Below the pieces are notes generated by a model. It worked only from the letters and a program-made list of their open reading frames with translations, searched no databases and had not been told where the DNA came from. From assembly GCF_014191775.1 (NCBI RefSeq), contig NZ_JACHXA010000008.1, positions 62,001 through 126,000 on the forward strand: DNA of 64,000 nt, written 5' to 3'. Both the position numbers and the translations under genes were made by a program. The stretch is from Limibacillus halophilus. Lineage in GTDB: Bacteria; Pseudomonadota; Alphaproteobacteria; Kiloniellales; CECT-8803. Below are positions 53,423 to 55,232 of the stretch, piece by piece (within the stretch, counting starts at the first letter, position 1; each line of letters starts with the position of its first letter).

Positions 53423-53499
53423 GCGCCCGTAGCTCAGCTGGATAGAGCGCTTGCCTCCGGAGCAAGAGGTCAGAGGTTCGAATCCTCTCGGGCGCGCCA
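53423..53499 (+). tRNA. tRNA-Arg (anticodon CCG)
   Basis: A complete cloverleaf of 77 bases including an encoded CCA. The acceptor stem GCGCCCG pairs with CGGGCGC (53489-53495), followed by discriminator G. The D loop AGCTCAGCTGGATAGAGC, the anticodon stem-loop CTTGCCTCCGGAGCAAG with anticodon CCG, and the T arm AGAGGTTCGAATCCTCT are all regular. It marks the left edge of the AT-rich HEPN islet; no repeat of its 3' end is visible on the islet's far side. Confidence 0.97.
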
Positions 53500-53769
53500 G
53501 TATTTCCCCTGAATTTAGCGGTTTTTGATCTGATTCTCGATGGGCGGTTGTTGATCGGGCCCAACAAGATGTGTGTAGTCAGACTAATCCGTCCCGCAGT
53601 TTTTTCTAACCCGCTTCGTCCCCTGTGCGGGCTAAGCGCAACTTCATCCTGGCAAAGGGGCAAAGCCGCGGTTGCATCCCCCAACTGCATTAGCAGATCA
53701 TGAAAGATAGAATTTTGATATACTGCATTCTCAACTAAATATTTCAAATCAAACTTGTGTGGGTAAGCC
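53500..53769. other. AT-rich transition between tRNA-Arg and the HEPN gene
   Basis: 270 bases in which base composition drops sharply towards the right. There is no integrase or att repeat. A short hairpin (CCCGC/GCGGG around 53611-53631) has no T-tract on its exit side. The last 70 bases are strongly AT-rich and probably hold the HEPN promoter. This stretch probably arrived with the gene. Confidence 0.5.
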
Positions 53770-54597
53770 ATGAGAACATTTGGAAATAATAAAGAATCAT
53801 ATTTATTAATCAATGGAATAAAAACACATCGAGTTATTTGCCTGAGTAAATCTGTTAAACTATTACCGGCTAATAAAAAAATTGATTTCCAGATAATATC
53901 AGATATCGCGAAAGATCAGCTTTCGTTTGGTATTATGTGCATATTTCTTGCTAGTGTTGAAAGCCAAATTTTGATAAGTGAGAATGACCCTAAAAAGCAT
54001 GCTGTCTTAGCATGGAATTCTCTATGGGATGCTGTTTTACTTAGTGCTTTGTATAATGTCGAAGCGGTTTGCAATTTTCAAAGTTCTGTTCCATACGAAA
54101 AAATTAAAAGCCATTCGCAATTATCAATTACAAATTATCACCTTCGTGGCTTGGTAAAGGCATCACATCAAATCAGTGAAGATGAGGCCGTATGGTTGGA
54201 AGATAATTTCCATAACGCACAAGATTTACTTGATGACCAAAGATTTAGAAATGCGGTCCATTGTATGGCAACTTATAGGTGGCATTCTAATCCTAGAGCA
54301 CAGTTGGCAATACTTTGGTCAGGCATAGAGGGAATATTTGGGGTTCAGAATGAAATATCTTTTAGATTAAGTTTATTTATAGCTAATTATCTTGAGCCAA
54401 ATAATGAAGAACAAAAGAAAAAGATTTTTTCTCAAATTAGAGAGCTTTACGTTAGCCGCTCAAAGGCAATTCATGGTTCCAAGATTAATTCTACAGCGAC
54501 AGAAGACGTTGAGGCATCGGCTATATGTTTGAAGCGATTGATTTATAAATGTATTCAGTCCCGCATGGTGCCTGATACGAGAACACTGGCGCCCTGA
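53770..54597 (+). CDS. HEPN-domain protein (Apea-like), putative ribonuclease of a defence type
   Basis: 275 residues. The C-terminal part (about 170-260) is an Apea-like HEPN domain: an ILWSGIEGIFG helix, EISFRLSLFIANYLE, and the catalytic motif R230-x4-H235 (RSKAIHG), the R-x4-6-H signature of metal-independent HEPN RNases. The N-terminal 160 residues are unrecognised. Codons are strongly A/T-ending, unlike every neighbour, and the gene sits just after tRNA-Arg, so it was probably acquired. Apea-like HEPN proteins include single-gene anti-phage systems. No antitoxin, nucleotidyltransferase or mobile gene adjoins it, so it would act alone. The HEPN call is firm, defence function inferred. 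Confidence 0.8.
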   Translation: MRTFGNNKESYLLINGIKTHRVICLSKSVKLLPANKKIDFQIISDIAKDQLSFGIMCIFLASVESQILISENDPKKHAVLAWNSLWDAVLLSALYNVEAVCNFQSSVPYEKIKSHSQLSITNYHLRGLVKASHQISEDEAVWLEDNFHNAQDLLDDQRFRNAVHCMATYRWHSNPRAQLAILWSGIEGIFGVQNEISFRLSLFIANYLEPNNEEQKKKIFSQIRELYVSRSKAIHGSKINSTATEDVEASAICLKRLIYKCIQSRMVPDTRTLAP

Positions 54598-54759
54598 AGG
54601 CGGTAATTTAGGCGTCAGAACAATCTCCGTCTTGGTACTCTAAAGTTAATTAGGTGAGATATCCCGCGCCTGCTCCCCCAACCCACTACCAAATCGTCCG
54701 CGTTTGCGGTCAAATCGGGCTGGGGCAGATCGCGTGACCAATGGCTGTGGGAGGCATGG

Positions 54760-55209
54760 ATGGCTGCGGTGAAAGCGGATTGTCTGTTCTGCAAGATCGG
54801 GCGGCGGGAGATCGAGCCGGTGGTACTGGCGGAGACGGAGCGGCTGTTGGTGTTCCTGGACCGCAACCCGATCCGCGAGGGGCATGCGCTGATCATCCCC
54901 AAGGCCCACTACGACTACTTCGACGATGCGCCGCTGGCGGTCGTCAACGAGATCACCGCCCTGGCGCAGAGGCTGGCCAAGCGCCTGAAGGAAATCTATC
55001 CGGTCGAAAAGGCCGCCTACATGTTTTCCGGCGGGGATATCGCGCACGTCCATGCCCATGTGCTGCCGCTCCATAAGAACAGCGACCTCACCTCGCTGCG
55101 CTACGTGACGGCCCCGGCGCAAGGCGAGATCGTGCTCGGCATGGCGCATCTGACCCAGGAGGCCGAGGCGCTGGCGGCGGTCCGGGAGAAGATCGGCCCC
55201 CTCACCTAG
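54760..55209 (+). CDS. HIT-family nucleotide hydrolase/transferase
   Basis: 149 residues with the HIT start CLFCKIGRREIEPVVLAETERLLVFLDRNPIREGHALIIPKAH and the catalytic histidine triad in DIAHVHAHVLPL. It hydrolyses or transfers nucleotides such as adenosine phosphoramidate or Ap4A. The ATG at 54760 follows GGAGG at 6 bases. It is a normal-GC gene just right of the AT-rich HEPN islet, in the same direction but with its own promoter space (162 bases). It is convergent with the LysR gene. Confidence 0.92.
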   Translation: MAAVKADCLFCKIGRREIEPVVLAETERLLVFLDRNPIREGHALIIPKAHYDYFDDAPLAVVNEITALAQRLAKRLKEIYPVEKAAYMFSGGDIAHVHAHVLPLHKNSDLTSLRYVTAPAQGEIVLGMAHLTQEAEALAAVREKIGPLT

Positions 55210-55232
55210 CAGCGTGCTCTCAGGCGCGCTGA

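Follow-up and report, generated by a model that had tools for sequence, protein, structure and literature searches.

Tha is a phage-encoded RNase of S. aureus prophages, a protein of 301 amino acids that is triggered by tail proteins and combines a C-terminal HEPN domain bearing the motif R265-x4-H270 with an N-terminal part of unassigned function (PMC11087260). Another one-protein defence system, the CBS-HEPN protein DS-11, was validated in 2026 (PMC13092281). The window analysed here, i.e. the whole 64,000-nucleotide stretch of Limibacillus halophilus DNA, contains an AT-rich islet whose lone gene (53770-54597, forward strand) encodes a HEPN protein of 275 amino acids. The protein resembles Tha-1 and Tha-2 in being a single polypeptide of about 300 amino acids with an unassigned N-terminal part, a C-terminal R-x4-H motif, no antitoxin gene and an association with phages. 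No homology to Tha-1 was detected (hhalign probability 0.8%, 32 columns), and the N-terminal region of Tha was not predictable, whereas that of the window protein is predicted as a confident alpha/beta domain. With AbiJ-type HEPN proteins and DS-11 it shares the fusion of a variable N-terminal sensor to a C-terminal HEPN effector, but no Pfam or PADLOC model in the searched sets matched its own N-terminal domain. The nearest solved folds for its HEPN domain, at residues 151-266, are the HEPN toxins of HEPN-MNT modules and Csm6, although the window protein has neither an adjacent MNT antitoxin nor a Pfam CARF match. A minimal nucleotidyltransferase gene is not adjacent; the neighbours of the HEPN gene are the tRNA-Arg and HIT genes. 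ApeA likewise belongs to the HEPN superfamily, has the R-x4-H motif and is found with restriction-modification (R-M) genes, but its N-terminal domain of about 300 amino acids is mostly beta, whereas that of the window protein comprises about 135 residues and is alpha/beta. The preliminary description of the locus had labelled the protein Apea-like. This label was not retained, since HEPN_Apea (PF18739) had no match in the window protein, its 19 aligned relatives or its own genome, and hhalign against a small profile of three Apea HEPN domains gave a probability of 0.1%. We consider it fairly probable that the gene encodes a horizontally acquired, one-protein, Tha-like abortive-infection RNase with a putative new sensor domain, because motif conservation, predicted fold, transfer, the defence and phage context of relatives and the analogy with Tha and DS-11 all point in this direction.

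The islet is bordered on the left by an intact tRNA-Arg gene with anticodon CCG (53423-53499, forward strand; ARAGORN; Rfam tRNA, E=6.9e-15), which is the sole tRNA gene of the window, and the HEPN gene begins 271 bp downstream of it. The left spacer (53500-53769) contains no recognised gene, is unique in its own genome and gave no Rfam match over threshold. Calculated in 60-base steps, its GC content is intermediate up to about 53.70 kb (48-58% in the initial 190 bp 3' of the tRNA) and then drops sharply. The abrupt fall in GC that had been placed at the tRNA end is therefore real, but is located at about 53.70 kb; the recovery, put near 54.6 kb in the preliminary description, is indeed seen by about 54660, within the right spacer (54598-54759). 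GC thus changes from about 0.66 to about 0.34 within the islet, in a neighbourhood of about 0.65, and ranges from 0.22 to 0.48 between about 53.70 and 54.66 kb. Within the window, the 800-base stretch with the lowest GC begins at 53701, and the islet overlaps each of the twelve 800-base segments that rank lowest in GC across the 64 kb. The right neighbour is a HIT gene (54760-55209); its composition is host-like and its best identity across the 37 genomes of the order that were searched is at most 38%. Between tRNA-Arg and HIT the 275-amino-acid ORF is the only convincing gene, in agreement with the single-gene islet described before, and in 53500-54760 there is no known RNA family, no antitoxin-like ORF and, also as described before, no integrase ORF.

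The HEPN gene is a complete ORF with a GC content of 0.354 and a GC3 of 0.28, and its codon adaptation is 0.21, compared with 0.56-0.73 for host neighbour genes. It is present in a single copy in its own genome. A search of 60 further genomes of the order at E<=1e-3 gave no match to the protein in 59, and the remaining genome yielded a weak partial match (32%) at a contig edge. In a set of 385 genomes sampled from the class, the protein had a match in three others, one of them an eroded copy. The closest relative of the window protein is a broken copy in Nitrosomonas (55% identity), and the best intact relatives are found in a planctomycete (44%) and in Lachnospiraceae of the Bacillota (up to 42%); other alphaproteobacterial members form a separate clade with only about 20-28% identity. 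From the low GC content, the absence from 59 of the 60 order genomes and the closest relatives outside the class, we conclude that the gene was acquired by horizontal transfer. The foreign origin proposed earlier is thus upheld by base composition, codon adaptation and patchy distribution: the combination that was to count against it, presence of the gene at this locus in all relatives with host-like codon use, was not seen.

The 275-amino-acid protein had no match in Pfam, NCBIfam or PADLOC (2023 set), nor in a PDB sequence search, and single-sequence scans of the genome and viral collections found nothing. It did match phrog_28161, an anonymous phage family, with E=2.6e-26 (residues 131-264 on profile positions 166-299 of 315), as did its Agrobacterium relative (6.1e-17). 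The C-terminal half is thus common to phrog_28161 and the window protein, but PHROGs states no function for this family and coverage is limited to residues 131-264. No paper turned up in the literature for the PHROG accession or the protein accessions. Relatives were recovered with a profile that included an eroded copy (L032). A scan of 84,980 species genomes returned at least 21 relatives and the viral collection at least one, counts that are lower bounds because the scans start from short patterns; the phages collection held no record with a recognisable relative. The window protein and 19 relatives from Pseudomonadota, Bacillota, Planctomycetota and one phage contig align end to end. Eleven positions, W142, A162, W183, G185, I186, E187, R199, Y227, R230, H235 and G236, are invariant in all 20 sequences, and in the N-terminal half G16, I69, W82-N83, W86-D87 and L90-L91 are conserved. 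Since the N-terminal half is conserved along with the HEPN half, the proteins constitute one family and not a chance fusion. We conclude that this family, which is uncatalogued in Pfam, NCBIfam and the 2023 PADLOC set, is that of a HEPN protein with its own conserved N-terminal domain.

This full-length conservation could also be expected of a house-keeping protein with a non-defence role in RNA processing or regulation, as some HEPN proteins process RNA. We regard such a role as highly improbable, given that the gene is absent from nearly all relatives, has foreign codon use and is decayed in four of the first 22 loci found (L079, L090, L093 and L095). Four decayed copies are what would be expected for a costly accessory gene. 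The copy in Sporofaciens (L090:6762-8786) lacks the N-terminus and adjoins IS3-like transposase genes.

AlphaFold2 with the family alignment gave a model with a pLDDT of 90.5 and a pTM of 0.89. The predicted N-terminal alpha/beta domain (residues 1-136, 53770-54177) comprises strands at residues 9-15, 23-26, 29-33, 65-70, 100-105 and 118-120 and helices at 40-62 and 74-94, and is a putative sensor or regulatory domain. Predicted alone (pLDDT 90.0), its best PDB matches were generic ferredoxin/TBP-like folds with Z<=4.4, which leaves the fold unassigned rather than demonstrably new. The preliminary description had reported an unrecognised N-terminal domain of 160 residues; its extent is revised here to about 135 residues, it indeed matches no Pfam or PADLOC model, and it has relatives across phyla. 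Judging from the alignment, the domain belongs to the family and is not specific to the window locus.

The C-terminal part (residues 137-275, 54178-54594) is modelled as a HEPN helical bundle with helices at 137-153, 157-171, 175-190, 197-208, 213-234 and 243-264. The predicted RNase active-site motif, R230-S-K-A-I-H235 (54457-54474), fits the R-x4-6-H pattern of the HEPN superfamily and sits where the second-to-last long helix of the model (213-234) finishes: R230 (codon cgc, 54457-54459) is among the last residues of this helix, and H235 (codon cat, 54472-54474) is the first residue after it, followed by the last long helix. Both residues, whose integrity had been noted before, are intact in the ORF and kept in 20 of 20 aligned sequences. 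The second HEPN signature, E195-x3-R199 (54352-54366), is retained as well, with E195 in 19 of the 20 sequences (D in one) and R199 in all. The placement of R230 and H235 matches the published HEPN layout, which includes an Ex3[KR] signature (PMC3710099), and thus supports the HEPN assignment. Foldseek with the full model yielded no match at E<=0.001, and likewise no significant match in the viral structure library. When the Foldseek candidates were compared by VIA-align, HEPN entries covering approximately residues 148-266 were in the top 15 of 998 chains, with Z scores of 6.3 for an AMPylated HEPN toxin, 6.2 for HEPN-MNT, 5.4 for T. thermophilus Csm6, 5.3 for the AF_0298 HEPN, 4.9 for the sacsin HEPN and 4.1 for the HEPN entry 4nqf; values of 5-6 are middling for helical bundles, and a Z below 8 may reflect a common helical arrangement. 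Joined with the position and invariance of the motif, these middling scores make the modelled HEPN fold convincing. The assignment is further supported by alignment of the HEPN part with the protein P0004 and with a Nostoc plasmid protein annotated as HEPN (hhalign 96%), both multi-domain proteins with other N-terminal regions. The HEPN identity proposed earlier is supported by the R-x4-H motif in all 20 sequences, by its correct placement in the model and by HEPN structures heading the comparison. Two larger proteins without a Pfam match, of 338 (L077:5446-6462) and 439 amino acids (L034:1083-2402), carry this HEPN part together with other N-terminal regions, so that one HEPN module occurs with more than one kind of partner.

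Several relatives are located among defence genes, the defence families at individual loci being assigned from neighbour sequences. One member comes after hsdS within a type I R-M operon (L081), an eroded member has type I R-M genes around it (L095) and a third follows a type III Res gene (L089). DUF2971 genes adjoin two members (L083 and L091), and an AbiEi-type antitoxin gene is located beside another (L098). The member on a conjugative plasmid of Agrobacterium has Shedu, DUF5677 and a pair of AAA ATPase and UvrD helicase genes within 10 kb. This context fits an abortive-infection RNase. Defence neighbours were found in only about one third of the relatives, however, and many members are solitary like the window copy. 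We count this against the abortive-infection model, together with the middling Z scores and the single viral contig.

The members next to R-M genes bear on a back-up role, in which the HEPN RNase would fire when a restriction or similar system is attacked or fails. PrrC, for instance, behaves in this way with its restriction partner. A role of this kind would agree with the three R-M loci and with the well-documented linkage of HEPN and R-M genes (PMC3710099), but neither R-M nor other defence genes adjoin the window copy or many of the relatives, and no partner recurs, so that we think it rather unlikely. The lack of a recurring partner gene across the family also makes a protein antitoxin unlikely. 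A toxin-antitoxin pair whose antitoxin was missed, be it a small RNA from the spacer, a tiny protein or a distant gene, would accord with HEPN-MNT toxins being the nearest solved structures and with the nucleotidyltransferase-domain gene upstream of one member (L084). Given that no adjacent gene is conserved and that 53500-54760 contains neither an antitoxin-like ORF nor a known RNA family, this explanation appears a little less likely again than the back-up role.

For the abortive-infection RNase that we favour, we infer RNase activity, dimerisation, N-terminal sensing and an anti-phage role of the window protein. A homodimer would stay autoinhibited in uninfected cells until the alpha/beta domain at the N-terminus senses a signal of infection, for which phage structural proteins are the best analogy, taken from Tha. 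Detection would align the two C-terminal HEPN domains, such that the paired R230 and H235 residues form a metal-independent RNase site; cleavage of cellular RNA would then stop growth and block phage release. The probable role is to guard bacterial populations against viruses. No immune systems are easier to transplant and study than those made of a single protein, and a known HEPN RNase effector joined to this conserved N-terminal domain could define a new infection-sensing module.

The position beside a tRNA gene raises the question of how the gene was inserted. In most relatives checked, tRNA-Arg is preceded by polA, a small ORF resembling a zinc finger, an ABC gene and, as a rule, a gene for a lipase. 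The only other genome of the family (G001) and seven further genomes of the order contained no clean empty tRNA-Arg site, because none of them keeps the gene order found here on the right side of the tRNA. A repeat of the tRNA 3' end on the right had been reported missing, and the best candidate indeed scored at the level of shuffled sequence. This candidate (55217-55229, 12/13) looks like a terminator stem after HIT. An inverted pair (53494-53504/54582-54592) and a direct pair (53585/54552) were also rejected; in both, the right arm is part of the 3'-terminal coding sequence, and by a rough estimate chance alone would produce several comparable pairs in 1.4 kb. With respect to tRNA-integrated islands, we thus found neither an integrase ORF beside the HEPN gene nor an att repeat. 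The gene could alternatively be a phage-derived superinfection-exclusion gene, the relic of a prophage lost from the tRNA-Arg site. The phrog_28161 match, the phage-contig member, the tRNA location and the AT-rich composition are in line with such an origin, yet neither further phage genes nor an integrase or an att repeat are left, and most relatives lie outside recognisable prophages; we therefore judge it unlikely. As this explanation concerns origin, it is compatible with the abortive-infection mechanism. On the phage contig (L078) a lone AT-rich family gene interrupts the tail genes (L078:2847-4233, GC 0.33 in a contig of 0.48); it and a small PhnB-like protein are encoded on the strand opposite to these genes, an arrangement like a moron insertion.

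The orthologous tRNA-Arg(CCG) of another genome of the order (G017) is also directly followed by an AT-rich islet (L071:6691-9698), which encodes a C-5 cytosine methylase (Pfam, 1.3e-68) and a 375-amino-acid protein without Pfam match that is possibly its restriction partner. The tRNA-Arg(CCG) site thus seems to accept defence cargo, which suggests a hotspot. Of 23 relatives, not counting the window copy, three have a tRNA gene within 350 bp, compared with a mean of 0.22 for random placement within the same loci (P=0.0008), an exploratory comparison as the 350-bp distance was chosen after seeing the data. That the single-gene family travels solitary and prefers tRNA-side sites without an integrase of its own, as a separate mode of defence spread, is a doubtful proposition that we hold to be very unlikely. 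One of these members is 146 bp from the 3' end of tRNA-Ser (L087) and another is on the 5' side of tRNA-Leu (L098). The third, in a Rhodobacterales metagenome-assembled genome (L094:7635-8828), is an independent look-alike of the window islet, in which a solitary member with a GC content of 0.46 in a locus of 0.61 is located 271 bp after tRNA-Glu.
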